A stretch of DNA of 64,000 nt, taken from the NCBI RefSeq assembly GCF_026151205.1, contig NC_087079.1:16982945-17046944 (forward strand). The letters run 5' to 3'. The position numbers were made by a program, and so were the translations under genes. Shown in pieces: positions 2,871 to 51,854 of this stretch. Under the pieces are notes generated by a model, which was given only the letters and a program-made list of their open reading frames with translations, did no database searches and was not told the DNA's origin. Positions within the stretch are counted from its first letter, which is position 1; each line of letters opens with the position of its first letter. The stretch is from Bolinopsis microptera (Eukaryota > Ctenophora > Tentaculata > Lobata > Bolinopsidae).

Positions 2871-3018
2871 GACTACCAGTTACAATTTAAAATCAATTAC
2901 AACCTTGAAAAAACACGTACTGTACTACGCACGTTACACAAGCTAACTAGATACCCATTTGATTGACGATGTCAACCCTTCCAGGTCGTTGCTCTGCGAA
3001 GCAAAGCAACAATTTCGT

Positions 3019-3145
3019 TGACGGATGTTACTCGTCTAAATTTCTTCGAAGTAGCCGCGCGCTGCTTTCTTCTCGAAATGTTGGCCCGATGGCAAGTGCT
3101 ACGAAGTAGCGCGCACCGGACCAGACCATTAAAAATGGCAAACGA
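3019..3145 (+). repeat. Dispersed repeat D, copy 1 (about 125 bp)
   Basis: It starts TTGACGGATGTTACTCGTCT, contains CGAAGTAG next to GC-rich GCGCGC, and ends near GACCATTAAAAATGG. Related copies lie at 10032-10275 (itself interrupted) and 11052-11180. No coding capacity was seen. Confidence 0.75.
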
Positions 3146-3611: not shown

Positions 3612-5222
3612 ATGTCCGGTATCCCAATCAGAAATTACAGCCTTCGTGACAGACCTAACAGTGCAAAAGCAAAATGTTCTACCTGTGTATCACTAAGTCT
3701 TGAAAACGACAATTTGAGGAGACAAATTGCTCGTCTAACCAAACTTACCCAAGGCTCAGGCCATGACAAAATTGCGGTTCCATTCTCTTGCGGGGACAAT
3801 GTTCTTATCTCTGAACATGAATCAGAAACTCAAAACTGTGAAGTTAGCAGTGTGACTGAACTTAATAGCAACCCATCTCTTGTGAATTCTTCTGATGTTA
3901 ACAAACAATCTTCAACCAGTGTTAACGTTGTGGGTAAGTCCATCAATCCATATCATGATTTGAGTCGAGGTGTATTCAGGTTTGTTGATACTCTCAAGTT
4001 GGATATGGAAACACAATACACACAAACGTTCAACAATAGGGCTGTAGCATACTATGGGGATTTCCCATATGCCTACAATGGAGGCTTCCATAACACAAGG
4101 CCGTTAAATGACAATCCCTTATTAAAGTCTATTTTAGAACGTTTACGCTCACAGTTCCCAAGTCTGAAATTTAACAGCGCCATGATCACCAAGTACGAAA
4201 ATGGCAAGCAAGGAATACCATTCCATTCAGATGATGAGAGGTCCATATCACCAGGCTCCATGATTTCCACCATATCGTTAGGAGCAACAAGAGTCCTCAG
4301 TTTTAGGTCTAAAAGCAAAGTCCACGTTGCCAATCTTACTCTCTCCCATGGCGACATAATGATTATGACCAGAAAATCTCAGGACAGCTTTGAACACAGC
4401 CTTATTCAGGACCATACTGATGACATGAGAATTAGCATTACTCTGCGCCAGATTGATGGCAGTGCAACCTTGTCTGCTCCACCCGATACCTCAAGTAAGC
4501 CTTTCGTTACTGTAAGAGAAACTGAACCCTCAATCAAAGGGAAATCATCACCCAACAAAATCACTCATAAGAGCACCGTACCCCCTGCTTCAGTCAAAAG
4601 CAAATCCCTTGCTGTGTATGTTAGCTCAAGCATGTTCTCCAAGTTAGATGCTACAAAACTATCCTCTGCTCATCAAGAAGCACATGTATTTCACTATCCT
4701 GGTGGCATTGCAAACGGTATCAATGAACGCTTCCACTCAGATGAAAGAAAGAGGTCAATTGATGCAAATAATGTGAAGACCATCGTACTCATGTGTGGAA
4801 CTAATGATGTGGACTTAATCCTAGAGAGTCCTCGACACATGAGGAATAGATTATTGTCACCCGATGAGTTCACAGGAAAAGCAAAGGCCCTTGATAACAC
4901 CAATCGCTCTATTGATAATCTGATCCAGTCACTTCACTTGTGGGCTCCAGCTGCAAAAATTAAGATCATAAACATTTTACCAAGAGAAAGTTTTGCTAGA
5001 AATAAAGTGATAAATGACATCAATATCTTTTTATCTAAGATTCCTTCCAAATACTCGTTTGTTAGCTTTATACCCACAGAGATGAATCGATTTTTGTTTA
5101 GTGATAGATCTGGATTTAGGAAATCATCTTGTTTTAGTAGATTTGGGGAAGACAATGTGCATCTAAACAGCGATGGTATCTTTAAACTAGCAAAGCACAT
5201 CAAGTACCATGCCCACCATTGA
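3612..5222 (+). CDS. LINE ORF1: AlkB-like 2OG-Fe(II) dioxygenase fused to SGNH hydrolase
   Basis: A 536-residue protein. Residues 21-45 have two Cys and then a heptad-like stretch that could be a short coiled coil. Residues 145-282 look like an AlkB-family dioxygenase: YYGDFPYAYNGG, KYENGKQGIPFHSDDE with the HxD metal ligands H205 and D207, the distal histidine H262 in FEHSL, and the R-x5-R motif R273-R279 (RISITLR) that binds 2-oxoglutarate. Residues 332-533 resemble SGNH/GDSL hydrolases: block I as VSSSM in place of GDS, block III MCGTNDV (396-399), and block V DNVHLNSDG (D514, H517). Esterase domains are known in CR1-type ORF1 proteins. The AlkB domain suggests repair or demethylation of alkylated nucleic acid, perhaps the element's own RNA; that role is inference. 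All expected dioxygenase ligands are present. Confidence 0.85.
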   Translation: MSGIPIRNYSLRDRPNSAKAKCSTCVSLSLENDNLRRQIARLTKLTQGSGHDKIAVPFSCGDNVLISEHESETQNCEVSSVTELNSNPSLVNSSDVNKQSSTSVNVVGKSINPYHDLSRGVFRFVDTLKLDMETQYTQTFNNRAVAYYGDFPYAYNGGFHNTRPLNDNPLLKSILERLRSQFPSLKFNSAMITKYENGKQGIPFHSDDERSISPGSMISTISLGATRVLSFRSKSKVHVANLTLSHGDIMIMTRKSQDSFEHSLIQDHTDDMRISITLRQIDGSATLSAPPDTSSKPFVTVRETEPSIKGKSSPNKITHKSTVPPASVKSKSLAVYVSSSMFSKLDATKLSSAHQEAHVFHYPGGIANGINERFHSDERKRSIDANNVKTIVLMCGTNDVDLILESPRHMRNRLLSPDEFTGKAKALDNTNRSIDNLIQSLHLWAPAAKIKIINILPRESFARNKVINDINIFLSKIPSKYSFVSFIPTEMNRFLFSDRSGFRKSSCFSRFGEDNVHLNSDGIFKLAKHIKYHAHH

Positions 5223-5357: not shown

Positions 5358-8333
5358 ATGACAAATATTCACAACTCAGCTGACAAATTTCATAACCTTT
5401 GCATTGGTCACTGTAACATTCAAGGTGGTCTCCTAAATTTAGCTAAAAGTAATGAACTTACTCAACTCATTCGAGATCATAAGCTAGACATACTTTCCCT
5501 AAATGAGATGAATCTTAATGATACTATTGACACAGACACCATAAATATTCCTTCCTCCTTCAACATTATGCGATGCGACAGGCCAAACAGTTCTAGGGGT
5601 GGTTGTGGCTTAATGATAAACAAAAAACTAGCTTACACAGAATTAGTTATGGATAGTAAGCTTGATAACATTGAAGCATTATGGGTGAAGCTTAAGAATA
5701 GCAAGATCAATGTTTGCTGCTTCTATCGCTCTGGAAATTATTGCAGTGTTGATAACTTTATTGAGTACATTCATTTTTGCATGAAAAAATTGAACGGAAA
5801 AAAGGTTATCTGGATTGGGGATATAAACATTGACCAGAATAATATCTCATCCACCCAGTACAAAAAATTAGATATGACCTTGAGATGTTACAATCTAGTT
5901 CAAACCATTCAAGGGATAACTAGAGTTGCTAAACGTGGAGACAATTTTACCCAGACTACTATTGATGTAATATTCACTAACTGTTATGCAGATTTTGTTC
6001 AATCTTCTGTTCTTGATGAACGTATTGGGGATCATCAAGCTATTATGTGTGAGATAGATTGTCAAGTACCTATAGCTCCTAAATTTGAAAAGGTTGAAAT
6101 TAGAAATCATTGTAAACGTAATGTTAAACAATTCTTAGACTATCTAGATACCTGTTCTGATTACAGTCCACTATTGGAAAGTACAGATGTTGAAGCTATC
6201 ACTGCTGGCCTTTGTCATCATATTGAACAGGCATATGCAACCTGCTTCCCTTGCAAGACCATAGAAAGGCATGAAAAGTTCATACATAAACCTTCTACTG
6301 AACTTTTAAATGCCATTAATCATACACATTTTCTTCTAAAGAAATTCCGTAAAAAGAAGGATAAGAGGGACAATGGAAATTGCAATAAATGTGGTATATG
6401 TAGCAAATGTATAAAGTGTAATGAGGCCTGGGATTGCTACAAGATTCAGAGAAATATTAGAAATAAATTAGCTAAAACCTGCAAAAAGGCTAATGTAATC
6501 GATGATCTACAAGTTAAAAGTGCCAAGAATGATCTTAAAGGGGTATGGAAAACTATCAAACTGGCATCAAATATGACCCCTGGTACAACTAATTGTCAAA
6601 CTATCAATGAGAATGATCCTGAGCTATTTAACTTTCATTTTGCAAATGTTGGATCAAGATTACAAAATCAGGCCCCCAATATTGAAAGAGTTAGTTTTAC
6701 TGATTTTTTACCTCCTAGAACTTCTAACATCTCATTTGATAGATTCCAAGAAATAAATGAAACTGATATCCTAATGTATGTCGAAACACTCAAGAATGAC
6801 AAGGCCTCATATGACGATGTGCCTCTATTTTTACTTAAGCAAGCTGTACCACACATAGTTGAGCCACTGACCCATATTGTCAATTTGAGCCTTAATACAG
6901 GTGTTGTACCAACCCTTTGTAAAAAAGCTAGAGTAACTCCCATCCATAAGGCAGGAATGAAAGATGATCCTAATAATTACAGGCCAATATCCATCCTTCC
7001 ACTTGTAGGAAAACTTATAGAATACTTTGTCGGCAAGCAACTCACCGATTACATGGAAGAGAACAAACTTTTCATCCGGCATCAATATGGCTTTCGGAAA
7101 AATCACTCCACAACTTATTTGATGTACGATCTGATGGACGAAATATATATGAGTAAATCTAAGTCTTATAAACCAGGAATCATCTTTCTTGATCTTAAGA
7201 AGGCCTTTGACACAGTGAATCATGAAATATTGCTTCAAAAATTGGCATATTATGGAATTGGTGGCATTGCTTTAACCTGGTTTAAGAACTTCTTATCTTG
7301 TAGATATCAATGCACAAGGATCAATGGCAAAATAAGCTCATTTTTAGAAGTTCTGAGTGGTGTACCACAAGGAAGCATCATTGGGCCTATATTATTTAGT
7401 ATCTTCATAAATGACATCATTTATGCCTGTAACCTATCTAAGCCCTTTCTATTTGCAGATGATGGTGCACTATTCTTTGATCAAACCTGCAGAAGCACAT
7501 TTATAAACATGAAAATAGAACTTATGACAATCTTTAAATGGCTCAGTGTAAATAAATTATCACTCAATGAAACGAAGACTGAATTCCTATTGTTTGATTC
7601 TGTTGATCAACATGATGAATTAACCATTGAATGTAATGAGGTAACTTTCACAATCAAGGAGTGCAAAGAGACAAAATATCTTGGCCTCATTCTAGATAGT
7701 AAATTAAACTTCAAAAGCCATGTAGATTATATTATTAAGAAGGTCATGAAGAGAATTGGTGCCATGTATAGAAGTAAAGCACTGCTACCCATTAAATATA
7801 GGAAAATGTTTGCCAATGCACTCATGTTGCCACAATTCGATTATTTAGACACGATCTATTGTAGAGCTGGCAAGACAAAACTTGCTGAACTTGACACTCT
7901 GTACAAAAAGGTAGCCAAAATAGCTCTCAACGTTCCACAAACAGAGAGCAGCCTTAATGTTTATAGAGACATGAAATGGTTACCACTCCATCTTAGACGA
8001 CAACTCCATCTGTCAAATTATATGTTTAGAATCATCCATGACAATTGTCCTACAAACTTTATGAACAAATTTAGTTACATATCAGGAGGTAGTAGGAGCG
8101 GCGAAAGCTGCAACCTATATGTTAATAGATCAACATCACATAAAAACTTTCAATACTTGGGGGCAAAATGTTGGAATAATGTTCCAACAGATCTACGAAA
8201 TCTGCCCGATGTTAAAAGCTTAAGTGATTCGTATAAGAAACAGCTACTCTCATCTATAACAACAGACCCTAATTATACCGTCGACAATTCATATGACAAA
8301 TTTTACACTGCAATCATAGTCGACGATAACTAA
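5358..8333 (+). CDS. LINE ORF2: AP endonuclease and reverse transcriptase
   Basis: A 991-residue polyprotein. An endonuclease domain spans about residues 15-235 (GHCNIQG, LSLNEMN, IGDINID at 153-159, IGDHQA near 223-228). A cysteine-rich stretch at 342-360 (six Cys at mostly 3-residue spacing) lies between endonuclease and RT, where such a cluster is not usual. The RT runs from about 520 to 800 with IIFLDLKKAFD (608-618), SGVPQGSIIGP (667-677) and the catalytic box FADD (699-702). The C-terminal region has WFKNF- and LPLHLRRQ-type LINE text. It is intact. Overall it reads as CR1/L2/jockey group, and the exact clade needs phylogeny. The product would nick target DNA and prime reverse transcription there. 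Confidence 0.9.
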   Translation: MTNIHNSADKFHNLCIGHCNIQGGLLNLAKSNELTQLIRDHKLDILSLNEMNLNDTIDTDTINIPSSFNIMRCDRPNSSRGGCGLMINKKLAYTELVMDSKLDNIEALWVKLKNSKINVCCFYRSGNYCSVDNFIEYIHFCMKKLNGKKVIWIGDINIDQNNISSTQYKKLDMTLRCYNLVQTIQGITRVAKRGDNFTQTTIDVIFTNCYADFVQSSVLDERIGDHQAIMCEIDCQVPIAPKFEKVEIRNHCKRNVKQFLDYLDTCSDYSPLLESTDVEAITAGLCHHIEQAYATCFPCKTIERHEKFIHKPSTELLNAINHTHFLLKKFRKKKDKRDNGNCNKCGICSKCIKCNEAWDCYKIQRNIRNKLAKTCKKANVIDDLQVKSAKNDLKGVWKTIKLASNMTPGTTNCQTINENDPELFNFHFANVGSRLQNQAPNIERVSFTDFLPPRTSNISFDRFQEINETDILMYVETLKNDKASYDDVPLFLLKQAVPHIVEPLTHIVNLSLNTGVVPTLCKKARVTPIHKAGMKDDPNNYRPISILPLVGKLIEYFVGKQLTDYMEENKLFIRHQYGFRKNHSTTYLMYDLMDEIYMSKSKSYKPGIIFLDLKKAFDTVNHEILLQKLAYYGIGGIALTWFKNFLSCRYQCTRINGKISSFLEVLSGVPQGSIIGPILFSIFINDIIYACNLSKPFLFADDGALFFDQTCRSTFINMKIELMTIFKWLSVNKLSLNETKTEFLLFDSVDQHDELTIECNEVTFTIKECKETKYLGLILDSKLNFKSHVDYIIKKVMKRIGAMYRSKALLPIKYRKMFANALMLPQFDYLDTIYCRAGKTKLAELDTLYKKVAKIALNVPQTESSLNVYRDMKWLPLHLRRQLHLSNYMFRIIHDNCPTNFMNKFSYISGGSRSGESCNLYVNRSTSHKNFQYLGAKCWNNVPTDLRNLPDVKSLSDSYKKQLLSSITTDPNYTVDNSYDKFYTAIIVDDN

Positions 8334-9901: not shown

Positions 9902-10031
9902 AGTTAGATTGTAAAATCTGACTATTGGATTGTCAAATCATAAAACGCCCACTTGCGCGTTTGAGAGTGTTCAAACACGCCAGGCTATGTTTATGAGCAT
10001 TGCATTGAGCATAATACAATAGAAATAGCCT

Positions 10032-10275
10032 TGACGGATGTTACTCGACTAAATTTCTTCGAAGTAGCGCGCGCCGCTTTCTTCTCGATGGTAAGTGCTA
10101 TACTGATAGTGAAACGGCGATGGGTGTCACGACGTGATAAAACGCTAATTCGTAACGCTAACTGACTATAGTGTAGAGTTTCTACGATACAGGGGGAGCT
10201 CTGCGCACTCGTGCGCGGCGGGCCATACAACGTATGACAAAAGTAGCGCGCGCCGGGCCTGATCATTAACAATGG
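10032..10275 (+). repeat. Repeat D, copy 2, interrupted by an inverted segment
   Basis: The D sequence (TTGACGGATGTTACTCG..., CGAAGTAGCGCGCGCC) is split at about 10100. The inserted text includes an inverted copy of the GTCGTTTCACTATA/GTCGTGACC segment found at 16548-16580, and then GAGTTTCTACGATACAGG in direct orientation. D resumes with AAGTAGCGCGCGCCGGGCC and ends AACAATGG. Confidence 0.6.
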
Positions 10276-11051: not shown

Positions 11052-11180
11052 TTGACGGATGTTACTCGTCTAAATTTCTTCGAAGTAGCGCGCACCGCTT
11101 TCTTCTCGAAATTCTTGCCCGATGGCAAGTGCTACGAATGACGAAGTAGCGCGCGCCGGGCCAGACCATTAACAATGGTC
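11052..11180 (+). repeat. Repeat D, copy 3
   Basis: A complete copy starting TTGACGGATGTTACTCGTCT, inserted into segmental duplication S after GAGCCGCGCAC. The other S copy at 16610 reads through this point without it, so D behaves as a mobile unit. Confidence 0.75.
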
Positions 11181-11930
11181 AACCGTAACCGCGCACTCAA
11201 AATACAGGGAGAGCCACGCACTCGTGCGCGGCGAGTCATACAACGTATGACAACCAATGCCTCAGCCCGAAACCAACCACTTTCGGAAAAATCTCGAAGT
11301 TGGCAATGTAAATCAGTTCTAAACGGTCAACGTTTAGCTCAGGAATCCTATGTGGATGAGCATAGTTTATCCTATTTTAATGGGTGCTTACCATTAGTTT
11401 AGCATATTAAGATTTGTCCCTCATTGCTCTCCCAATTGCCAATGCCCTAGCCCAAAACCAACCACTTTCGGAAAAATCTCCAAGTTGGCAATGCAAATCA
11501 GCTCTAAACGGTCAACGTTTGAACAAGGAATCCCATGTGGATGAGCATAGTTTATCCTATTTTAATGTGTGCTTACCATTAGTTTAGCATATTAAGATTT
11601 GTCCCTCTCCCAATATGCCCGGACACAAACCTGGCCAGAGTTCTCTTAGAGAGTTAGAGTTGTGCCTGACGTTTAGTTTTAACTCCCGCTGATCTCTGAA
11701 AATCTAAATTTACCGCGGACGTTTTCCCTCGAGTAAAATCGATAACAACTGATTTTGGTATAAAAACTGATTTTTAGCCTAATGCGTCCTAATGTCTCCA
11801 ACTGCTGCTGCTAGTGAGCGCTCCTACTAAATCGCTCGCCTTAATTTAAACTGTTACTGTTACCGCGGCGGAAGAATTTCGCCGCGGTAACAGTAACACC
11901 ACTCACGATCAAATTTCCCTACCGCATACA

Positions 11931-17330: not shown

Positions 17331-20300
17331 CTTACTTACTTTACTTACTTTGGGCGATCCTCAATCGAAATCCCATTCACTGTCTGCCTCCACACGTCTC
17401 GATCGCACATAACAGTTCGAAGGTCGTCTAACTGGAGCCCAGTGTCACGAGCTACTACGTCCAGGAAGGTGAGTGGTCTCCTTCCACGGCCGGATTGGGC
17501 AAGTCGCCAGGGGAGGATAGTGGAGATAACTTGGTCAGAAGCTCTCATGCAATGCCCAGCAAATCTGGAACGCCTCGACGCAACCACTGAGGCAATAGAT
17601 GGAAGGTTGCCATAGATCTGCTTGAGGGTTGGATGTTTCTTCCACGAGATGTTCTTGGCCTTCATTAAAAGACGGGTGTAGCATCCGTTGAGGCGCTTCT
17701 CAAGCTGCTTGTTTATGGTCCATGTCTCTGATCCATAGAGCAATACTGGTTCGACACAGGCTCTAAAGAACTTGACTTTCAGTTGTTCGGAAATGCCAGA
17801 GGACCAGACTTTTTGCAGTTTAATACAGGCTGACCAGGCCATTCCTTTCCTTGTGTTGAAATCCTTTCTACTGTCCGCAATGAAAGAGCCGAGGTATTTA
17901 AAGTCATCAACCTGTTTAATCTGGCGGCCTGAGATGGAATGTAAGTCGACAGTGTCAGGGATGTTGATGGTCATGAACTCGGTCTTAGAAGCATTCATAG
18001 CAAGACCAACTTGTGCGGCTGCATTTTCAAGGTCTGTCAGCAGAAGTTGGACTTGCTCTATGGTGTCTGACATTAAGGCCAAATCATCAGCAAAGTCAAG
18101 GTCTGTGATTTTGACCGCAGGCACTCTTCGACTTTTCCTAGGCACGATGGTAAGACCGAATTCTTCACCCATGCAGCTTCTGAGGACATAGTCAAGGACG
18201 ATGATGAAGAGAAAGGGTGCTAGAGTGTCCCCTTGGAGAACTCCAATAAGTGTCCTAAAAAAGTCAGTAAGGCCGTCGATGGTCTGGACACGAGAGAACG
18301 ATGAGTCATAAAGAAGCCTGATAGCATCTACAAGTGGAGCAGGGATACCGTAGAGGGAGAGGATGTGGAAAAGGGCATCCCGGTTAATGCTGTCGAACGC
18401 TTTCGAAAAATCGACAAACACAATTGCGGCTGAGCGATTTCCGATCTTGCATTCCTCGAGTATACGACGTAGGGCAAGGACCTGTGGGAGTGTGGATCTT
18501 CCTCTACGGAAACCATTTTGGTTTGGCCGCAAGAGGGGATCAATGAATGGGTAGATCCGGTTGAGGATGAGCTTGTTAAAAACTTTCGCTGCAACCGGTG
18601 CCAGTGAAATGCCACGGTAGTTTCCTGGATTAGTAAGATCACCCTTTTTGGGGATAGGAATGATTGAGGCCGTTTTCCAGGCTTGAGGGATCACACCATC
18701 CATGAGTGCTTTGTTACAGAATCCGAGGAGGTTTTCACGTAGCTGGGGAAGCTTCCAGACTGAGGGAGGGATGCTATCCAGACCGGGTGACTTGGAGGAT
18801 TTGGCGGACTTCAGAACCGTGTCGAGTTCTGACATGCTGAAGGATGAGCAGCTGATGGGCAGGGTGTCAGAGACTCGCTGGTTGAAGAAGGGGAGGGTGA
18901 GGTCCGGCGGAGGCTGTTCTGTGCCTAGAAGGGACTTGAAGTGCTCGAACCAGATGTTGAGCCGTTCTTCGGTAGTGCCCCCTGGCACTTTGCAGTATGG
19001 CACAGTGTCGGAAGATGTTAGTTGCCTGATGATGTGCCAGGAACTGCGATGCCTGTGCTCAGGGTTAGTTTTCTCCAGCAGGTCAGTCTGTTGTCGAATG
19101 TGCTGTGAAGTAGCAGCATTATAGGCTTCGTCCAGTTGCTTCTTTGCGTCTTCAAGCTTTTCCTTGGACGAAAAAGAGGGGGAAATCCTGTGACTCAGGG
19201 ACGCATCCTTTAGGATATTGCGATGGTGTGCAATGTTAGGATCGTTGTAAGGATTTTCCCGTTTCCTCTTCCTCTTTTTTGGCAACACCTTAAGTGCTGT
19301 GCTTGTAACGCTTTTAACGAGCAGGTCGTAGTCGGACTCGAGCTCTGCTTCCTCTAGGAGTACACTGTACCTGTTTTTCACTTCCACTGCATACTGGTGT
19401 TTCATGATGGAATCGTGGATCAGTGGAGTCCAGTCAATGCTCCTAAGAGGGTCCCGTGCTGGAGTTTTGTTGACTCTGTAGCTGGCTTGAACAAAACATG
19501 TTACAATCCGGTGATCTGAACCGACAGTTTGCATAATGTTGTACGCTTGACAGTTCTTCACACTGTTTGCCCACTTCTTACGCCAGAGTACAAAGTCAAT
19601 TTGATGCTTTGCTCTTTTGGGGTCTTCATAGGTCCAAATTTTATTAGCCGGTTTCTGGAAACAGCGGTTAGCAACTATCAGCTGGTGTTGGTCTACCAGA
19701 TCCAGTAGTCGTTCGCCGTTGTCGTTGGTTGACTGATGGTATGTGAAACCGTAGCTATTACTGAGCTTCGCGTTGAAATCACCGCACACTGCTAGCATGT
19801 TGTGAGGAGGCACCTTAGAGATGATCCTGGTTAGAGCGTTGTAGAATGCAGTTTTATCTTCAATATCACTGCAGTTAGTAGGAGCATAACAGGAGAGGAC
19901 TGTGAGGCGAGGATTTCCGTTTACATGGAGCAAGATGATTCTGCTATTAACTTTCTCTACAGATAGGAGAGATTTCTGAATTCTAGGAGATAAAAGAAAC
20001 CCAACACCACCAACTGACGCATTAACTGAATTCTTCGTAGCAGAAGCAGTGATGAGCTGATATGATAAGATGTTTTCAATTCTTAGGGATTCTTTGTGGT
20101 GTTGTCGATGCTCTTGCAAGGAGATAACATCATTATGATGCATGAAGGCTGAGTGAGCTAACTCCTGTTTACGTGATACAGGGTTGAGAGTCCTACAGTT
20201 GAAGGTGCTAACCTGAAAAGGGGTTTTCCTACGAACTAAAAGGGTAGTAACAGGGTTGCTGCAACTATCAGGACCCACCCCTCCCGGGGGTTTTAGGGAG

Positions 20301-20740
20301 GGCCCGTCATACAGGGAGCTAGCTGCCACTGAGTAGTTAGGGGCTTGAACCCTAGTGCTGTTATCGTGTGTCATCATAAAAGTGAGGGGGGATTTTGTCT
20401 AATGGCTAGACATTGTTCCAGGCACGGCGCCACTGCAACCTGGATGTGACACTATAATCCAATACCCTCATCAGTAGGTACAATCACGGGTGCAGGTCTT
20501 CATAAACCCGGCTTGTTTTTCGAGGTATGTGCTCCTCTAGATCCGCCGTGTTTAGTTGACCCAGACAGTCGGATTCTTCAATGACATGCCGGTCTAGAAG
20601 GGTCACCTCGTGCAGGATGTGGCTCTTCACCACGCACGGACGGTCTAAGCTCGATCTAGAGTCTAGACCGAGCCCTGGCCCATATTACAGGACCTTGAAA
20701 CGGATCAGTTCAAAATGAAACTGAACATGACCCTCCCCAC
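17331..20740 (-). mobile_element. RTE-type LINE with 11-bp target duplication
   Basis: A minus-strand element with one long open frame, a 5' region of about 360 bases and a very short 3' end that closes with an AAGT-type microsatellite (read on plus as ACTTACTTACTTTACTTACT). The 11-mer TAACACTAACA flanks it exactly (17320-17330 and 20741-20751). Short 3' ends with small tandem tails are characteristic of RTE-type LINEs. An intact frame and exact duplications point to a recent insertion. Confidence 0.85.
17345..20377 (-). CDS. RTE-type LINE polyprotein: AP endonuclease and reverse transcriptase
   Basis: 1010 residues, uninterrupted. The endonuclease spans about 54-296: STFNCRTLNP, ISLQEH, YAPTN, CGDFNAK (198-204) and VGSDHRIV (285-292). 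The RT spans about 560-860: IPIPKKGD, NYRGISL, IVFVDFSKAFD (652-662), IGVLQGDTLAP (711-721) and LDFADD (760-765). The C-terminal part has YGSETWTINKQ, and RRSRFAGHCMRA followed by the GRGRRPLTFLD segment, as in RTE-like LINEs. There is no separate ORF1. The N-terminal 50 residues are low-information and the true start may be slightly internal. It may be competent, though that cannot be shown here. Confidence 0.88.
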   Translation of the reverse strand: MMTHDNSTRVQAPNYSVAASSLYDGPSLKPPGGVGPDSCSNPVTTLLVRRKTPFQVSTFNCRTLNPVSRKQELAHSAFMHHNDVISLQEHRQHHKESLRIENILSYQLITASATKNSVNASVGGVGFLLSPRIQKSLLSVEKVNSRIILLHVNGNPRLTVLSCYAPTNCSDIEDKTAFYNALTRIISKVPPHNMLAVCGDFNAKLSNSYGFTYHQSTNDNGERLLDLVDQHQLIVANRCFQKPANKIWTYEDPKRAKHQIDFVLWRKKWANSVKNCQAYNIMQTVGSDHRIVTCFVQASYRVNKTPARDPLRSIDWTPLIHDSIMKHQYAVEVKNRYSVLLEEAELESDYDLLVKSVTSTALKVLPKKRKRKRENPYNDPNIAHHRNILKDASLSHRISPSFSSKEKLEDAKKQLDEAYNAATSQHIRQQTDLLEKTNPEHRHRSSWHIIRQLTSSDTVPYCKVPGGTTEERLNIWFEHFKSLLGTEQPPPDLTLPFFNQRVSDTLPISCSSFSMSELDTVLKSAKSSKSPGLDSIPPSVWKLPQLRENLLGFCNKALMDGVIPQAWKTASIIPIPKKGDLTNPGNYRGISLAPVAAKVFNKLILNRIYPFIDPLLRPNQNGFRRGRSTLPQVLALRRILEECKIGNRSAAIVFVDFSKAFDSINRDALFHILSLYGIPAPLVDAIRLLYDSSFSRVQTIDGLTDFFRTLIGVLQGDTLAPFLFIIVLDYVLRSCMGEEFGLTIVPRKSRRVPAVKITDLDFADDLALMSDTIEQVQLLLTDLENAAAQVGLAMNASKTEFMTINIPDTVDLHSISGRQIKQVDDFKYLGSFIADSRKDFNTRKGMAWSACIKLQKVWSSGISEQLKVKFFRACVEPVLLYGSETWTINKQLEKRLNGCYTRLLMKAKNISWKKHPTLKQIYGNLPSIASVVASRRSRFAGHCMRASDQVISTILPWRLAQSGRGRRPLTFLDVVARDTGLQLDDLRTVMCDRDVWRQTVNGISIEDRPK

Positions 20741-37751: not shown

Positions 37752-40700
37752 ATGCCTGCAGAAAATAACGGCAGGGGTAGGGGAAGAAGACGTCGTGGTA
37801 GAACTACTTTTAGTTCAGCAGCTACAAGACGTAATCATCGTCGTATCAGACTAGCTAATGAAGCAGTAGAGGAAGCACAGCAGAGAAGAGAGCAAGACCG
37901 GTTGCGTCACACTCCAGATCCACGTATCACATTTATGATGAGTAGTAGTAATCGAGCTAGAGTTTTAGAAGCTTTGACTGATGTGTCAGATGCAGCCAGA
38001 ACAGCCATGGACGAGAACATCCAAGATTTTATGACACATCGGAGCTTATATATGTCAGAGGAGCAGATTACAGATATGGATCGCACAGTGGCCAGACTGA
38101 GGGAATCACAGGCACGAGCAGAGATGACTGATGAGCAACGGGCTGCCGCTAATGAGGCCGACAGATTACGGACATCACAGGCACGAGCAGAGACGACTGA
38201 TGAGCAACGGGCTGCTGCTTATGAGGCTGACAGATTACGGACATCACAGGCACGAGCAGAGATGACTGATGAGCAACGGGCTGCCGCTAATGAGGCTGAC
38301 AGATTACGGACATCACAGGCACGAGCAGAGATGACTGATGAGCAACGGGCTGCCGCTAATGAGGCCAACAGATTACGGACATCACAGGCACGAGCAGAGA
38401 TGACTGATGAGCAACGGGCTGCTGCTTATGAGGCTGACAGATTACGGACATCACAGGCACGAGCAGAGATGACTGATGAGCAACGGGCTGCCGCTAATGA
38501 GGCCAACAGATTACAAACATCACAGGCACGAGCAGGGATGACTGATGAGGAGAGAGAGGCTGAGAGGGCCCGTAATAGGGCACGCCTTGCTGCCGAAAGA
38601 GAGAGAGCCCGGAGACAACTTGGTGATGCTGTTGCACGCTCTTGGCCAGGACAAACTCCTCAACCACTTCTATTGGGGCTACGTGATCGTCCCTGTCCGT
38701 ACAACTGTAACGCCTTAAGATTTGAAAAAGAACTTAGTGGTGTACATGCTAGCTTATGTTGTAATAGGGGTAGGGTTAAACTTGAAAATTGCCAGAAACT
38801 TTGTCCGTATCCCGATGAAATGAAATATTTGTTGATGGGTGATCATCCTAACAGTAGTAACTTTTTTGAATACATTAGACGATATAATTCAGCTCTCGGA
38901 TTTGCAAGTTTGGGAGCTAACACCACACCTCCTCCTGGATACGGACCGTACTGCTTTAGGATTCATGGTGCTGTTTATCATAGGTCTGGCTTATTGCACC
39001 CTGAGGCCAGTAATGAATCGAGAAGGTACGGGCAGATTTACATCCTTGAAGGAGATGGAGCATTACAAACAAGACTGAATAATAATGAAAGTACGTTACG
39101 TCATGTCATGTTGCTATTACAGAATAACCTTACTTTATGCAACCCGTATGCTGCTGCGTACAAGAACCTCAATACGCGTGAGCAAGAGGAGATGCAACTC
39201 GCGGGAGTTGAGAACAGAGAGCCTAAAAATATTGGTATGAGATTTAGTGCAGGTCCTGACAGGAGGAGGTACAACGCTCCAACTCACAATGACGTAGCGG
39301 CTGTGTTTGTAGGGGAGGACGGTGTTCCTGGTAAGCAAGAATTTTATGTTTATCCTAAATCGTCCGATACATTACACAAAATTTGTGGTCCACTGTATAG
39401 TATGAGAAGTAGAGATTATCTAACTGAACCGGTTGAGAACGTAAATTTAAATGAGCTTCATGAAATGACACCTCCCGGTTTTCCATTACATGACTTACAA
39501 TTAAAAGTAAATTGTAATGTTAGATTGCTTAAGGGATTAGACAGTTATCCGGACGTTCCTGTAGGCTCACGTTTAAAAGTTACTGAAGTAAACCAAGTTC
39601 ACGGATATATAGTTTGTATCTATGCTGGCCGTTCTTTGACTGTAAGTAAATCTGATTTCGTAACATCATACCAAAATTCCACAGTCATACGACATCAGTT
39701 GCCGGTTAAGTTAGAAACATATTTAGAAACTATTTCGGCACTTAATGCTAATTTGGACCCATTAGTCTATCCCATATTGTTCCCGAAAGGCGAGAAAGGC
39801 TGGCACTCCGAAATGAAACTAAATGACAGGGCTAGGGTATCACAAAAGATGTTTTATACGTATAGGATTGCTTACAGAAATGAGCCTTTCTCGCCATTGC
39901 ATTTTGGCCGCAAACTCTTTCAACAGTACTGTGTCGATTGTTGGGTTAGAACCGAGGCCAATAGGTTGCGTTATATTAGTGAAAATCAAACGAAGCTACG
40001 TGCTGACCTATATTTTGGCCTCATGGATCACCTTGAAAGTGAAAACGTTGACCCCGGCCAACAACCGCAGCCTGGCCGTCCCAAAATTCTAGCATCGTCC
40101 TTTACAGCCGGGCCACGATATATGAAACAAAACTATGAAGATGCGATGGCTATGGTGACTGAATACGGGAAACCAGACTTCTTTACCACTTACACATGTA
40201 ACCCTAAGCACCCTGATATTGACAATAACCTTGGCAACGACCCAAATAGAAACACACATCGTCCAAAATTAACTGCATCGGATAGGCCCGATGTAGTAGC
40301 TGCCGTTTTTAAATTACACTTAGAAGCATTAAAAGTTGATCTTAAGAAAATGTTTGGTAAACAATTAGCTAACATCCATGTAATAGAATATCAGAAACGC
40401 GGCTTGCCTCATGCGCATATCTTAATTTGGTTGGTGAACGAGGCAAAAGTTAGAACAGTAGAGGAGTTAGATAGCTTGATTAGTGCTGAAATTCCTGATC
40501 CTAATATATTTCCACGATTGCACGAAATAGTAACTTCGTGTATGCTACACGGCCCATGCGGTGTGGTGAAACCTAACGCATCATGTATGGAAAATGGTAA
40601 ATGCACAAAGAAGTTTCCTAAAGATTTCCAAGAGGAAACGGTCATGGATGTTAATGGATATCCATTGTATAAACGCCCAAACAACGGTAGGATGGTGATG

Positions 40701-41471
40701 AAAAATGGTGTACCGCTTGACAATAGATACGTAGTACCGTACTGTCCTTACTTATCACTGAAGTATAATGCCCACATCAACGTAGAAGCCTGTACATCGA
40801 TAAAATCTATTAAGTACATCTTTAAATATGTTTACAAAGGTCATGACTGTGCGAGAATTGAGACAACTGAAAGAGATCCCACCTCTCGGGATGAGATTAA
40901 GAAATACATTGATACCAGATACGTGAGTGCACCGGAGAGTGTGTGGAGACTCAGTGGATTTGATGTGTGCGATAAGAGCCACACTGTTGTGAGATTAGAC
41001 ATACATGAACACCTCCATCAGAGTGTCACTTTTAGAGAGGGTGCTGATATTGATGGGGTGTTGGAGCGAGATCACAGTACGAAGTTGACAGCTTGGTTTG
41101 ATTTGAATGAGAGAGATCCTGAGGCACGGCAGTATTTGTATAATGAGATACCTAAGCACTATAGGTGGGACCAGAAAAACAAGAAGTGGATTAAACGAGT
41201 GAAGTCGGGTGCTGCGGTGATAGCAAGAATTTACAGTGTAGGTCCCAGGCAGCGGGAGAAATTTTACTTGAGAATGTTACTGCTTCATGTGCGGGGTGCG
41301 AGGTCGTTTCGTGAGATGAAAGTGTACGATGATGTGAGGTATGATACGTATGAGGAGGTGTGTCGTGTCTGTGTGTCTGTCTGTCCGTGTGTAATTTCCG
41401 AACGGTTATACAAAAAAAACGGTAATAGTTACGGGACTGGTTTTTTCGGTATAGTGCCGACAAAACTCTGA
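37752..41471 (+). CDS. Helitron Rep protein, N-terminal part ending in a duplicated 5' segment
   Basis: 1239 residues. The N-terminus is Arg-rich. Seven copies of a 23-residue charged repeat (RAEMTDEQRAAANEADRLRT type) lie at about 115-275 and may form a helical stalk. CPYNCNA...CCNRG (about 317-345) is a zinc-finger-like segment. The Helitron N domain follows: FFTTYTCNPKHPDI, the HUH motif PHAHILIW with H887 and H889, and the two-tyrosine motif KYIFKYVYKG with Y1022 and Y1026. The frame then runs into a copy of the Helitron 5' sequence and stops after about 36 unrelated residues, so it lacks the helicase. The Rep domain cleaves and joins single-stranded DNA in rolling-circle transposition. 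Confidence 0.88.
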   Translation: MPAENNGRGRGRRRRGRTTFSSAATRRNHRRIRLANEAVEEAQQRREQDRLRHTPDPRITFMMSSSNRARVLEALTDVSDAARTAMDENIQDFMTHRSLYMSEEQITDMDRTVARLRESQARAEMTDEQRAAANEADRLRTSQARAETTDEQRAAAYEADRLRTSQARAEMTDEQRAAANEADRLRTSQARAEMTDEQRAAANEANRLRTSQARAEMTDEQRAAAYEADRLRTSQARAEMTDEQRAAANEANRLQTSQARAGMTDEEREAERARNRARLAAERERARRQLGDAVARSWPGQTPQPLLLGLRDRPCPYNCNALRFEKELSGVHASLCCNRGRVKLENCQKLCPYPDEMKYLLMGDHPNSSNFFEYIRRYNSALGFASLGANTTPPPGYGPYCFRIHGAVYHRSGLLHPEASNESRRYGQIYILEGDGALQTRLNNNESTLRHVMLLLQNNLTLCNPYAAAYKNLNTREQEEMQLAGVENREPKNIGMRFSAGPDRRRYNAPTHNDVAAVFVGEDGVPGKQEFYVYPKSSDTLHKICGPLYSMRSRDYLTEPVENVNLNELHEMTPPGFPLHDLQLKVNCNVRLLKGLDSYPDVPVGSRLKVTEVNQVHGYIVCIYAGRSLTVSKSDFVTSYQNSTVIRHQLPVKLETYLETISALNANLDPLVYPILFPKGEKGWHSEMKLNDRARVSQKMFYTYRIAYRNEPFSPLHFGRKLFQQYCVDCWVRTEANRLRYISENQTKLRADLYFGLMDHLESENVDPGQQPQPGRPKILASSFTAGPRYMKQNYEDAMAMVTEYGKPDFFTTYTCNPKHPDIDNNLGNDPNRNTHRPKLTASDRPDVVAAVFKLHLEALKVDLKKMFGKQLANIHVIEYQKRGLPHAHILIWLVNEAKVRTVEELDSLISAEIPDPNIFPRLHEIVTSCMLHGPCGVVKPNASCMENGKCTKKFPKDFQEETVMDVNGYPLYKRPNNGRMVMKNGVPLDNRYVVPYCPYLSLKYNAHINVEACTSIKSIKYIFKYVYKGHDCARIETTERDPTSRDEIKKYIDTRYVSAPESVWRLSGFDVCDKSHTVVRLDIHEHLHQSVTFREGADIDGVLERDHSTKLTAWFDLNERDPEARQYLYNEIPKHYRWDQKNKKWIKRVKSGAAVIARIYSVGPRQREKFYLRMLLLHVRGARSFREMKVYDDVRYDTYEEVCRVCVSVCPCVISERLYKKNGNSYGTGFFGIVPTKL

Positions 41472-42607
41472 TGAAGCCCATAAGCAAACGACCCAAATAG
41501 AAACACACATCGTCCAAAATTAACTGCATCGGATAGGCCCGATGTAGTAGCTGCCGTTTTAAAATTACACTTAGAAGCATTAAAAGTTGATCTTAAGAAA
41601 ATGTTTGGTAAACAATTAGCTAACATCCATGTAATAGAATATCAGAAACGCGGCTTGCCTCATGCGCATATCTTAATTTGGTTGGTGAACGAGGCAAAAG
41701 TTAGAACAGTAGAGGAGTTAGATAGCTTGATTAGTGCTGAAATTCCTGATCCTAATATATTTCCACGATTGCACGAAATAGTAACTTCGTGTATGCTACA
41801 CGGCCCATGCGGTGTGGTGAAACCTAACGCATCATGTATGGAAAATGGTAAATGCACAAAGAAGTTTCCTAAAGATTTCCAAGAGGAAACGGTCATGGAT
41901 GTTAATGGATATCCATTGTATAAACGCCCAAACAACGGTAGGATGGTGATGAAAAATGGTGTACCGCTTGACAATAGATACGTAGTACCGTACTGTCCTT
42001 ACTTATCACTGAAGTATAATGCCCACATCAACGTAGAAGCCTGTACATCGATAAAATCTATTAAGTACATCTTTAAATATGTTTACAAAGGTCATGACTG
42101 TGCGAGAATTGAGACAACTGAAAGAGATCCCACCTCTCGGGATGAGATTAAGAAATACATTGATACCAGATACGTGAGTGCACCGGAGAGTGTGTGGAGA
42201 CTCAGTGGATTTGATGTGTGCGATAAGAGCCACACTGTTGTGAGATTAGACATACATGAACACCTCCATCAGAGTGTCACTTTTAGAGAGGGTGCTGATA
42301 TTGATGGGGTGTTGGAGCGAGATCACAGTACGAAGTTGACAGCTTGGTTTGATTTGAATGAGAGAGATCCTGAGGCACGGCAGTATTTGTATAATGAGAT
42401 ACCTAAGCACTATAGGTGGGACCAGAAAAACAAGAAGTGGATTAAACGAGTGAAGTCGGTGATAGCAAGAATCTACAGTGTAGGTCCCAGGCAGCGGGAG
42501 AAATTTTACTTGAGAATGTTACTGCTTCATGTGCGGGGTGCGAGGTCGTTTCGTGAGATGAAAGTGTACGATGATGTGAGGTATGATACGTATGAGGAGG
42601 TGTGTCG
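40238..42607 (+). repeat. 1.12-kb direct duplication inside the Helitron
   Basis: Segments 40238-41362 and 41489-42607 are almost identical. Noted differences are a 9-base indel near 41211 and a few substitutions. A copy of 36889-37012 of about 126 bp separates them. Junctions show short shared bases (GCAA; GTGT). It could be a real rearrangement or an assembly join of alleles. Confidence 0.85.
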
Positions 42608-44396
42608 TGAGAGAGGTCTGTTAACTGATGACACAGAGTGGAAGAGAACACTTGAGGAAGCGTGTGGGATTGCTACGTGTAGGCAGATAAGAGAGCTTTT
42701 TGTGACGATATTAGGCTGTTGTGAGCCGAGTAATCCTAGAGAACTGTGGGACGACTTCCAGGAACAGATGTATGAGGACTATGTGAATATCCATAATTTA
42801 CCTCCTGATAGAGCGGTACATTATGCCCTTAGAGACATCAATCATTCACTGCTTGCAAATTACCGTGTTTCTGTCACAACTTTTAATATAGACTTACTTG
42901 AAAACTGGGAAGATTTACCCTCACTTGACGAGGCTGAGCACGACTATATAGATGTTGCTGCCGAGGCTGATAGATTTGACACCATGTATAGTCGACTTAA
43001 TGATGAACAAAGGTTTATAGTAGATTCAATTATTCACGAACTTACACTGCATGGTTCAGCACCTAGCTCCGACAGGGTACGTGCCTATTTCATAGACGCT
43101 CCTGGTGGTACCGGTAAAACGTTTGTCTTTAACACTCTTATTGCAAAAGCACTTGCATTGGACCATAAAGTATCCTCCTGTGCCTGGACCGGGATAGCTG
43201 GTAATTTGCTTAGATTCGGCCGCACTGTCCACAGTTTATTCAAGCTTCCAGTCCCAATCCTTGAAACGTCGACTTGCAATATAACACCTTCATCAAAGCA
43301 AGCTGCTTTTATAAGATCTTTAAGTGTAATCTTTATCGACGAGGCGTCCATGATACCAAAACATGCTCTCTCAGCTATTGATTTAATGCTCAGGGACATA
43401 ACAAACAACACAGTTCCATTTGGAGGTAAACTTTTGCTTTTTGCTGGGGACTTTCGACAAACATTACCGGTTACCCCTAGAGCGCAGCCTGCTGGAATAT
43501 TGGAAAACTGTATAAACAGATCACCTTTATGGGAACACATTACTCAATTACAGTTGACACAGAACATGCGTGCGAGGCCTGGAGAGCGTGAGTTTTGTGA
43601 ATGGTTGATTAAATTAGGTGATGGGAAACTTAGATCGGACCTCCCCGATGCTTTACCCAGTCAAATCGATATACCTGATCAATGTAACATAACATCCGGT
43701 GTAGTAGACGCTATCTATCCTGATTTTAACGTAGATAGATCTAAGAGCATTATATTGACACCGAAAAACGTTGATACACATGTCATTAACAGGGACACTT
43801 TAGCTAAATTTAAACCTGAGGAACAGAGTAGGTCGTACTTTAGTTCAAATGTATATGTTGAGGATGAGGGTAATGAGGTAAATAACATGTCTGTTGAGTT
43901 TCTACACTCTCTAACACCTAGCGGCTTGCCTTTGCATGAACTTGAGCTGAAAATTGGGTGCCCAATCATGCTTCTAAGGAATTTGGATGTGAAGAACGGT
44001 CTATGTAATGGCACAAGGCTTATTGTTAGGCATTTGGGCGATAGGTGCATAGCAGCGGAAATAATATCCGGATCTGAGGCTTCAATAGGACGTCAAGTAT
44101 TGATACCCCGCGTGAAACTGATCACGTCTGATATAACAATACCGTTCAAGTTCCAACGGACCCAGTATCCGGTCCGCCTGGCGTACTGCATGACCATCAA
44201 TAAGAGCCAAGGCCAAACATTCAACAAAGTAGGACTGTATTTACCTCAACCCGTGTTCTCACATGGCCAACTGTATGTAGGCTTTTCGAGGGGGAAATGT
44301 TTTGAAGACATTTATCTGCAATTGAAAAATACTGTATTTCAATACACAACCGAAAATCAGGCAGTTACAGTTAACGTTGTATTCGAGGTTAAATAG
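41601..44396 (+). CDS. Helitron protein, Rep core plus Pif1-like helicase
   Basis: 931 residues from an internal Met. It repeats the Rep core (H21 and H23 of HAH, Y156 and Y160 of the tyrosine motif) and continues into a superfamily 1B helicase: Walker A APGGTGKT (500-507), Walker B IFIDEAS (577-583), GGKLLLFAGDFRQTLPV, QNMRARPGE, and a C-terminal NKSQGQTFNKVGLY and HGQLYVGFSR. Compared with the upstream frame it lacks three residues near position 286 (GAA at that point). It lacks the N-terminal zinc-finger region, so alone it is probably incomplete. The two frames together cover a usual Helitron Rep-helicase. Confidence 0.88.
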   Translation: MFGKQLANIHVIEYQKRGLPHAHILIWLVNEAKVRTVEELDSLISAEIPDPNIFPRLHEIVTSCMLHGPCGVVKPNASCMENGKCTKKFPKDFQEETVMDVNGYPLYKRPNNGRMVMKNGVPLDNRYVVPYCPYLSLKYNAHINVEACTSIKSIKYIFKYVYKGHDCARIETTERDPTSRDEIKKYIDTRYVSAPESVWRLSGFDVCDKSHTVVRLDIHEHLHQSVTFREGADIDGVLERDHSTKLTAWFDLNERDPEARQYLYNEIPKHYRWDQKNKKWIKRVKSVIARIYSVGPRQREKFYLRMLLLHVRGARSFREMKVYDDVRYDTYEEVCRERGLLTDDTEWKRTLEEACGIATCRQIRELFVTILGCCEPSNPRELWDDFQEQMYEDYVNIHNLPPDRAVHYALRDINHSLLANYRVSVTTFNIDLLENWEDLPSLDEAEHDYIDVAAEADRFDTMYSRLNDEQRFIVDSIIHELTLHGSAPSSDRVRAYFIDAPGGTGKTFVFNTLIAKALALDHKVSSCAWTGIAGNLLRFGRTVHSLFKLPVPILETSTCNITPSSKQAAFIRSLSVIFIDEASMIPKHALSAIDLMLRDITNNTVPFGGKLLLFAGDFRQTLPVTPRAQPAGILENCINRSPLWEHITQLQLTQNMRARPGEREFCEWLIKLGDGKLRSDLPDALPSQIDIPDQCNITSGVVDAIYPDFNVDRSKSIILTPKNVDTHVINRDTLAKFKPEEQSRSYFSSNVYVEDEGNEVNNMSVEFLHSLTPSGLPLHELELKIGCPIMLLRNLDVKNGLCNGTRLIVRHLGDRCIAAEIISGSEASIGRQVLIPRVKLITSDITIPFKFQRTQYPVRLAYCMTINKSQGQTFNKVGLYLPQPVFSHGQLYVGFSRGKCFEDIYLQLKNTVFQYTTENQAVTVNVVFEVK

Positions 44397-49729: not shown

Positions 49730-50445
49730 AACTTACTAAATTACTAAATCCATATTTTCCTTACAAGCTCCTTCATAAAATTAACTTAACTAAACTAAAT
49801 CAAAAAAACAAAATCAAACGAAACGAAACGAAAATGAAATACAAGAATAAAAACTAAAATTAAAATAAAATATCCCTAAAAGCATTTCTTCAGCATAAAC
49901 TTGTTGGTGTGCCTACATTTACTTATGAGTTCCCTCCTCCTATTTAATAGATTGCCATCTTTATTTAAAATAATATAAAGTTTTTCAGTAAGGCAGAGAT
50001 GACAATCTTTCGTACCCCCCTTGTACGGATGAGCATGTTTGATTATTTTCCAAGATATTTTATATGGTGTTTGTTTATCTTTCAACTCCCATATTTTCTT
50101 AGATAGCTCCGTCTGATTTCGTAGCTTCTCGAGTTTGAAAGAGCTTGTGTGTGAACTGAAACGGGTCTTAAAAGTGTTTTCAGTAAGCCCAATATATTTG
50201 TGCTCTTTAAATAAAGATGGCAATCTATTAAATAGGAGGAGGGAACTCATAAGTAAATGTAGGCACACCAACAAGTTTATGCTGAAGAAATGCTTTTAGG
50301 AATATTTTATTTTAATTTTAGTTTTTGTTCTTGTATTTCATTTTCGTTTCGTTTCGTTTGATTTTGTTTTTTTGATTTAGTTTAGTTAAGTTAATTTTAT
50401 GAAGGAGCTTGTAAGGAAAATATGGATTTAGTAATTTAGTAAGTT

Positions 50446-50494
50446 ATTCTGACACTGATGATTGCATTTGCATGAAACTTTGAGTTTGTAGAAT
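50446..50494 (+). ncRNA. Hammerhead ribozyme in Penelope-like repeat, copy 2
   Basis: Stem I is ATTCT-g-ACA (50446-50454) with TGTAGAAT (50487-50494). Core CTGATGA is at 50455-50461. Stem II is TGCA/TGCA with loop TT (50463-50472). GAAA is at 50474-50477. Stem III is ACT/AGT with loop TTG (50477-50485). Cleavage is expected after T50486. The short stem III is the minimal type I form reported from Penelope-like elements. Confidence 0.88.
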
Positions 50495-50688
50495 CGTTGT
50501 TTTCATTGTACAATGCTCCCCTCCCGGGTAGAGTACTCTTGAAACTGGATTTCTCCAAAAGAAACATCATATATATATATATATATATATATGATTGTAT
50601 ATATATATATATATAATGTTTCTTTTGGAGAAATCCAGTTTCAAGAGTGCTCTACCCGGGAGGGGAGCATTGTACAATGAAAACAACG

Positions 50689-50737
50689 ATTCTACAAACT
50701 CAAAGTTTCATGCAAATGCAATCATCAGTGTCAGAAT
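50689..50737 (-). ncRNA. Hammerhead ribozyme in Penelope-like repeat, copy 3
   Basis: Same sequence as copy 2 on the opposite strand, in the inverted arm of the repeat. Confidence 0.85.
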
Positions 50738-50967
50738 AACTTACTAAATTACTAAATCCATATTTTCCTTACAAGCTCCTTCATAAAATTAACTTAACTA
50801 AACTAAATCAAAAACAAAATCAAACGAAACGAAACGAAAATTAAATACAAGAACAAAAAACTAAAATTAAAATAAAGTATTCCTAAAAGCATTTCTTCAG
50901 CATAAACTTGTTGGTGTGCCTACATTTACTTATGAGTTCCCTCCTCCTATTTAATAGATTGCCATCT

Positions 50968-51645
50968 TTATTTAAAATAAATAATAATATAAAGTTTTTC
51001 AGTAAGGCAGAGATGACAATCTTTCGTACCCCCCTTGTACGGATGAGCATGTTTGATTATTTTCCAAGATATTTTATATGGTGTTTGTTTATCTTTCAAC
51101 TCCCATATTTTCTTAGATAGCTCCGTCTGATTTCGTAGCTTCTCGAGTTTGAAACAGCTTGTGTGTGAACTGAAACGGGTCTTAAAAGTGTTTTCAGTAA
51201 GCCCAATATATTTGTGCCCTTTCTTTTCCTTTTCCTCTGCAATAGTTGCTTCATATATCACTGCTGCTTCCAGTAAATCCAGGCATTGTCCGTTCAGTGG
51301 GCACATTTCCGGCTTTCTGCAATTGCACGTTTTCGATTTAATTATAGGTTCTTTCTGAGCTTGGTGTCTGGTGCTCGCTAAGATGGATCCTACGTTGAGT
51401 AGGCAACTGTATGATAGCTTAATTGTGTTTCTGTTGAACATTTTGTGGAATTGGTGTCCTCTGGGGAAGTGCTTGTCTAGTAATCGGAGGAAGCTTTTGC
51501 CTATGTTTGTTGTTACATTTGAGCTGTATGGGGGGTTGAACCATATGATCTTCCTGGATCTCTTCCTGTTGGCTCGTGGCAAGGCGGTGCTAGTATCTGT
51601 AAACTCTAGTTGGTGGTCGTGGCCGCTTTCTTTAAGTGCTGTTCC
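50968..51645 (-). pseudogene. Penelope-like element C-terminus with GIY-YIG endonuclease
   Basis: The minus-strand reading has FNPPYSSNVTTNIGKSFLRL, CNCRKPEMCPLNGQC (a Cys-rich block typical of Penelope-like proteins before the endonuclease), VIYEATI, KYIGLTENTFKTRFSSHTSC and later KRAHP-like HAHPYKGGTKDCHLCLTEK. This is the Penelope GIY-YIG family. It is a partial copy with no reverse transcriptase. Treated as a fossil. Confidence 0.85.
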
Positions 51646-51854
51646 GTATATATATATATATATACATATAATAATCAAATAAACAATTGAACAAGGTACT
51701 GTAAGTGCTTCTAAACTCACAATTTAAACAAAATGCCACTATAAGACCCAAAATTAGTGGCTCACGACATGAACTTATTGGCCAAAATTAAAGAGTGAGA
51801 AAATATTCTGTTTAAATCATTTCTGGCAGAATCTCAACGAGATACTATTTAGAT

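Follow-up and report, generated by a model that had tools for sequence, protein, structure and literature searches.

A predicted AlkB dioxygenase fused to an SGNH hydrolase in ORF1 of a LINE from the ctenophore Bolinopsis microptera

The proteins encoded by the first open reading frame (ORF1) are the less understood part of long interspersed nuclear elements (LINEs) (PMC4120745). In the esterase-type (type IV) ORF1 proteins (ORF1p) of CR1/L2 LINEs, such as zebrafish ZfL2-1, an N-terminal zinc-finger/leucine-zipper (zf/lz) or coiled-coil region is joined to an SGNH esterase fold, and ORF1 precedes an ORF2 that codes for endonuclease and reverse transcriptase (EN-RT) (PMC3905857, PMC4120745); for the ZfL2-1 esterase, membrane targeting has been proposed (PMC3905857). 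Enzymes of the AlkB family take methyl damage off RNA and DNA. The capture of an AlkB-family dioxygenase by a retrotransposon is also already known, from Ty3/Gypsy elements of orchids (PMC9289625). Among replicators with RNA genomes, AlkB-type folds occur in replicases of plant and other RNA viruses, as represented in BFVD. These viral replicase domains have a repair role. Here we describe a LINE in a 64,000-nucleotide stretch of Bolinopsis microptera DNA (NC_087079.1, positions 16,982,945 to 17,046,944; the whole stretch is referred to as the window), in which a single ORF1 is predicted to combine an AlkB-type dioxygenase with an SGNH hydrolase.

The element is a non-LTR (long terminal repeat) retrotransposon with both ORFs intact, each free of interruptions and on the + strand. 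By predicted fold and motifs, an esterase domain lies in the ORF upstream of EN-RT; ORF1p is of the esterase type (type IV-like), and a predicted AlkB domain is inserted between an N-terminal CxxC/helix region and the SGNH domain. The original prediction, made from the letters of the window, had claimed an intact ORF1 fusing AlkB to SGNH beside a full ORF2 in a LINE context, and this was borne out by the ORF calls, profiles and folds. The features are given below; conservation counts refer to alignment A1, which holds 47 members, namely the window protein and 46 of the 57 proteins recovered by a first protein search.

3612..5222, + strand: ORF1, 536 amino acids (aa), N-terminal CxxC/helix, AlkB dioxygenase and SGNH hydrolase (ORF call, domains, fold)
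3675..3752, + strand: CxxC (aa 22-25) and predicted helix (aa 23-47), coiled-coil-like (zf/lz-like) (motif, structure model)
3936..4460, + strand: AlkB (2-oxoglutarate (2OG)-Fe(II) dioxygenase) domain, aa 109-283 (profile, fold)
4224..4238, + strand: HSDDE, predicted Fe ligands H205 and D207, plus E209 (each 47/47)
4395..4397, + strand: predicted Fe ligand H262 (47/47)
4428..4448, + strand: R273 (2OG-binding position) and R279 (47/47 each)
4599..5219, + strand: SGNH/GDSL hydrolase domain, aa 330-536 (fold, motifs)
4629..4631, + strand: S340, block I serine, in SSSM (47/47 rows, 45 informative)
4797..4808, + strand: G396-T-N398-D399, block III (N398 45/45, G396 44/45 non-gap)
5151..5162, + strand: D514-N-V-H517, block V (D514 and H517 43/44 non-gap)
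5358..8333, + strand: ORF2, 991 aa, endonuclease and reverse transcriptase (ORF call, Pfam, PDB matches)
5412..5978, + strand: endonuclease/exonuclease/phosphatase (EEP)-type endonuclease region, ORF2 aa 19-207 (Exo_endo_phos, 2.1e-7)
6948..7691, + strand: reverse transcriptase region, ORF2 aa 531-778 (RVT_1, 3.4e-35)

A single-sequence Pfam search matched ORF1 to 2OG-FeII_Oxy_2 at E = 4.1e-18, above the gathering cut-off, and all 47 aligned members gave an AlkB profile match at E<=0.1; the predicted structure has the double-stranded beta-helix fold of AlkB. The HxD...H metal ligands and the two arginines, five ligands in all, are invariant across an alignment identity of 31% to 97%. The prediction had staked itself on a significant AlkB profile match and on dioxygenase ligands that do not decay among copies; the match is significant, and the ligands are kept in all 47 aligned members. 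The roles of R273 and R279 are presumably those of R204 and R210 of AlkB. A chance ORF or chance motif was ruled out by profile, fold and the 47-member conservation. Third-position G+C is 0.465 in the AlkB part (3987-4457) versus 0.32-0.37 in the N-terminal part, the SGNH part and ORF2, possibly a trace of a separate origin.

Profile and fold rankings place the predicted AlkB domain in the ALKBH2/ALKBH3 class. In the single-sequence PDB search with ORF1, 16 of the 17 rows were ALKBH3 or ALKBH2 chains (1.3e-13 to 2.5e-11), the last being an m6A (N6-methyladenosine) DNA demethylase at 0.81, and the family profile ranked ALKBH3 (7e-24) and ALKBH2 (1.5e-22) ahead of E. coli AlkB (1.7e-4) and ALKBH5 (0.1). 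The nearest folds were ABH2 and ALKBH3, mostly DNA-bound structures. ALKBH5 was rejected as nearest kin on its profile E-value and on a fold rank below that of ALKBH2/3. The window ORF1 shares the HSDDE motif with ALKBH2/3, and E209 aligns with an acidic residue close to the catalytic centre, Glu175 in ALKBH2 and Glu195 in ALKBH3 (PMC3985658). Unlike the window domain, human ALKBH2 and ALKBH3 are cellular and their matched chains single-domain; identity over the domain is 25-29%. As the domain ranks with ALKBH2/3, lesions of the N1-methyladenosine (m1A) and N3-methylcytidine (m3C) type are favoured over m6A as its substrate, the substrate being read from the class. The original prediction had proposed that the domain may keep element RNA free of alkylation or of host methyl marks; between these, profile and fold ranking favour lesions of the m1A/m3C type over m6A.

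The rankings also bear on a different function, in which AlkB clears the element's RNA of m6A or other regulatory methyl marks set by the host and so avoids silencing or decay, comparable to the proposal for the orchid elements. This is unlikely in our judgement, even though the orchid AlkB ORF has demethylase activity in vitro, LINE-1 and endogenous retroviruses are reportedly affected by m6A (PMC9289625), and the acidic residue represented here by E209 is present in ALKBH5 and FTO (PMC3985658). The orchid protein is ALKBH5-like, whereas the ALKBH5 match of the window protein is marginal; moreover, unmodified E. coli AlkB is very poor on m6A, and gains require altered recognition residues (PMC11065319, PMC7968990). 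The orchid (Phalaenopsis) elements further differ in being LTR retrotransposons that carry an m6A-type dioxygenase in an additional ORF (PMC9289625), whereas the window domain is ALKBH2/3-like, fused to SGNH and encoded beside an EN-RT ORF2. Membership of the orchid Gypsy AlkB lineage was rejected on the ORF2 and the AlkB class.

A repair function of the AlkB domain during copying of the element is the explanation that we prefer. Both m1A and m3C stall reverse transcriptases, so that the element, with a copy of several kilobases to make, would bring along a means of template repair. ORF1p would self-associate through its N-terminal helix, which we infer to form a coiled coil, and would coat or package element RNA, while the SGNH domain, after the ZfL2-1 proposal, would take the particle to membranes or process an acyl substrate. 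The AlkB domain would strip Watson-Crick-face methyl groups (m1A, m3C) from element RNA or single-stranded cDNA, and may so repair the RNA ahead of copying by removing lesions that stall the reverse transcriptase. Taken as a whole, an AlkB-bearing esterase-type ORF1p that removes m1A/m3C from the element's RNA or cDNA as template repair has, in our estimate, slightly less than an even chance of being correct. We are a little more doubtful of the wider claim that a diversified LINE lineage encodes direct-reversal repair inside ORF1p, with each ribonucleoprotein particle (RNP) clearing methyl lesions that block reverse transcription from the RNA template it carries and perhaps also from the first cDNA strand, which would make template repair an integral step of retrotransposition.

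The N-terminal helix (aa 23-47) is present in the structure model with a block pLDDT of 59-76, and 37 of the 47 aligned members have a CxxC among their first 110 residues. Motifs resembling CGTDD, possibly metal-binding, are repeated in the linker ahead of the AlkB domain in relatives P0006, P0012, P0030 and others (by eye) and are not in the window protein.

Pfam gave no match to an RNA recognition motif (RRM) or CCHC in the window ORF1 at E<=1, and oligo(A) RNA was not bound by the ZfL2-1 esterase (PMC3905857), so that an ORF1p of this kind needs RNA binding elsewhere. The AlkB fold might mainly give ORF1p single-strand binding in place of the RRM or CCHC modules found in other ORF1 types, with catalysis minor. 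We regard this as quite unlikely, as binding alone would not demand metal ligands, 2OG ligands and E209 that are invariant in 47/47 members. The closeness of the fold to ABH2 and ALKBH3, mostly in DNA-bound structures, and the preference of ALKBH2 for lesions in double-stranded DNA (PMC11065319) would fit yet another role, in which the substrate of AlkB is the nicked target or the cDNA as it is made; one example would be the repair of alkylated DNA in the course of target-primed reverse transcription. However, RNP packaging is presumed to be the main task of ORF1p (PMC3905857), and the domain is about equally near ALKBH3, an enzyme of single-stranded DNA and RNA (PMC11065319); we consider a target-site role very unlikely.

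Single-sequence searches with the SGNH part were weak, with a Pfam match at 0.079, below the cut-off, and a PDB match to 2hsj at 1.4; the predicted fold is nonetheless clearly that of an SGNH hydrolase. The profile check set by the original prediction held for 2OG-FeII_Oxy_2 and fell short for SGNH by Pfam, where the fold supplied the identification. The S, G, N and H of the four SGNH blocks are conserved, G364 in 45/45 non-gap rows. The canonical GDS around the serine is absent, with SSSM in the window and the serine itself kept, and GDSM at block I was found in P0048 only. Block I is usually described as 'GDSL or similar sequence', which makes GDS customary and not obligatory (PMC5408684). 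In this the window and most of its relatives, with SSSM, are unlike ORF1p of the ZfL2-1 type, as they are in having AlkB between the N-terminal and SGNH parts. The SGNH matches were catalytic subunits of PAF acetylhydrolase and bacterial sialate O-acetylesterases, at 13-21% identity and likewise unlike the window in block I, which reads SSS here; the ZfL2-1 esterase (PDB 4c1b, the code being taken from PMC3905857) was not among the matches listed for the SGNH part.

The prediction had called for a survey of related proteins, and the same fusion was found to recur. The protein set comprised 60 proteins: 57 from the first search, one from a short query (the 163-aa AlkB piece, which returned one close relative) and two from a profile search, which recovered 38 earlier matches together with the SGNH fragment P0059 and the bacterial AlkB P0060. 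The first search and the profile search each scored only about 8000 candidates, and the 11 first-search proteins outside A1 were counted in the 60-protein motif tally. By pattern match, each of the four motif sets (HxD..H..R..R, block I serine, GxN, DxxH) is present in 53 of the 60. The seven exceptions (P0010, P0046, P0053, P0054, P0058, P0059 and P0060) are short or single-domain proteins, gene models, or sequences that diverge at one end. An organism name was attached to three of the 57 first-search matches, all of them predicted proteins of Mnemiopsis leidyi. Its presence in dozens of relatives makes it probable that the fusion is a tool which is maintained.

An accidental capture or chimaera with no role in the element can be invoked, since chimaeric gene models do occur, as in P0054 with its fused gag-like sequence; the 53 proteins with four motif sets and the ligands invariant from 31% to 97% identity make it extremely improbable. 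A private chimaera of one copy was rejected on the same tally. In the predicted protein P0054 (Mnemiopsis leidyi), a gag-like zinc-knuckle N-terminus is joined to this ORF1, as the result of a nested insertion or of an error in the gene model.

Pairwise distances in the AlkB domain track those in the SGNH domain (Spearman 0.77, a value reached by 0 of 999 permutations) among 44 of the 47 members, P0010, P0053 and P0054 having been dropped from this comparison and from that of the trees. Many groups agree between quick AlkB and SGNH trees; others differ, for example in the position of P0016 and in how P0002, P0003 and P0004 are arranged around the window protein, and these discordant placements make some exchange of modules possible. 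Among 15 close relatives, which may be copies in one genome or alleles, variable columns make up 52/164 outside the two domains versus 73/388 inside (p 0.0012). Scans of viral contigs with the ORF1 alignment, ORF1 and ORF2 gave no relatives, and a scan of genome contigs with P0060 kept 80 bacterial AlkB loci.

Several observations weigh against template repair by a maintained AlkB domain. Many ORF1 types, as presented in PMC4120745, manage without AlkB, so the domain is not generally required. The m6A enzymes FTO and ALKBH5 likewise have an acidic counterpart of E209, Glu234 and Glu153 respectively (PMC3985658); E209 cannot therefore separate m1A/m3C from m6A, and the class assignment draws on profile and fold ranking. 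Asp135 of AlkB has been linked to m1A/m3C recognition (PMC11065319, PMC7968990), and D135N cuts m1A activity about 200-fold, from 3.7 to 0.018 (PMC11065319); D208, another candidate counterpart of this residue, is D in 30/47 members and N in 17/47. In the 15 close relatives, AlkB alone did not differ significantly from the non-domain columns (p 0.09), and six of the 14 differences between the window protein and P0001 fall in the AlkB domain. Finally, an ORF2 adjoining an AlkB-SGNH ORF1 is known from the window only, the relatives being known as proteins without genomic context.

An AlkB domain in a LINE ORF1 had been called little described, which fits the searches made: among the open-literature papers listed, none describes an AlkB-bearing LINE as judged by title and start of abstract, though subscription papers, preprints and Repbase lay outside these searches and may hold an earlier notice. 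Neither AlkB nor oxygenase occurs as a word in the main text of PMC4120745, PMC5408684 or PMC6338049. The viral AlkB-type domains, unlike this one, sit in polyproteins, in BFVD rows of which most are not named AlkB and several are long alignments with high root-mean-square deviation. The element would join RNA viruses and the orchid Gypsy elements as a replicator copied through RNA that has captured an AlkB, here of a class that differs from the orchid one. With a catalytic domain that is conserved and can be recognised in ORF1p, a concrete question also becomes testable, namely whether template damage or methylation limits retrotransposition enough to favour an eraser of the element's own.

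ORF2 matched solved structures of R2 and LINE-1 ORF2 proteins at 1e-11 to 5e-8, and Pfam gave no RNase H match in ORF2 at E<=1; endonuclease and reverse transcriptase without an RNase H match are compatible with a CR1/L2 clade LINE. A look for target-site duplications returned only three 10-base flank-to-flank matches, without a convincing pair that would define the ends of the element. A dispersed repeat flanks the LINE on both sides (3018-3138, 10031-10088 and 11052-11178; pieces 87-97% identical). Tandem arrays lie at 1355-2118 and 11254-11607, with 57-base and 185-base units, and positions 2680-2800 hold what by eye looks like a tRNA-derived sequence resembling a short interspersed nuclear element, with a B-box-like stretch; ARAGORN reported no tRNA in the window.

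Elsewhere in the window, ORF fragments at 49876-51720 (- strand) resemble the GIY-YIG part of Penelope-like elements by eye, and the one piece scanned, 50968-51720, had no Pfam match at E<=0.001. Another EN-RT ORF, 1010 aa long and likewise without interruptions, lies at 17345-20377 (- strand), and Rfam SECIS_1 matched at 20258-20319 (- strand; 42.7 bits, cut-off 35), within the 5' end of that ORF. A Helitron at 37752-44396 (+ strand) has Helitron_like_N (5e-53) in its first ORF and a PIF1 helicase (3.6e-50) in its second; the second ORF starts with a repeat of 1132 bases of the first, at 99.0% identity, which reflects either a recent duplication in tandem or an effect of the assembly.
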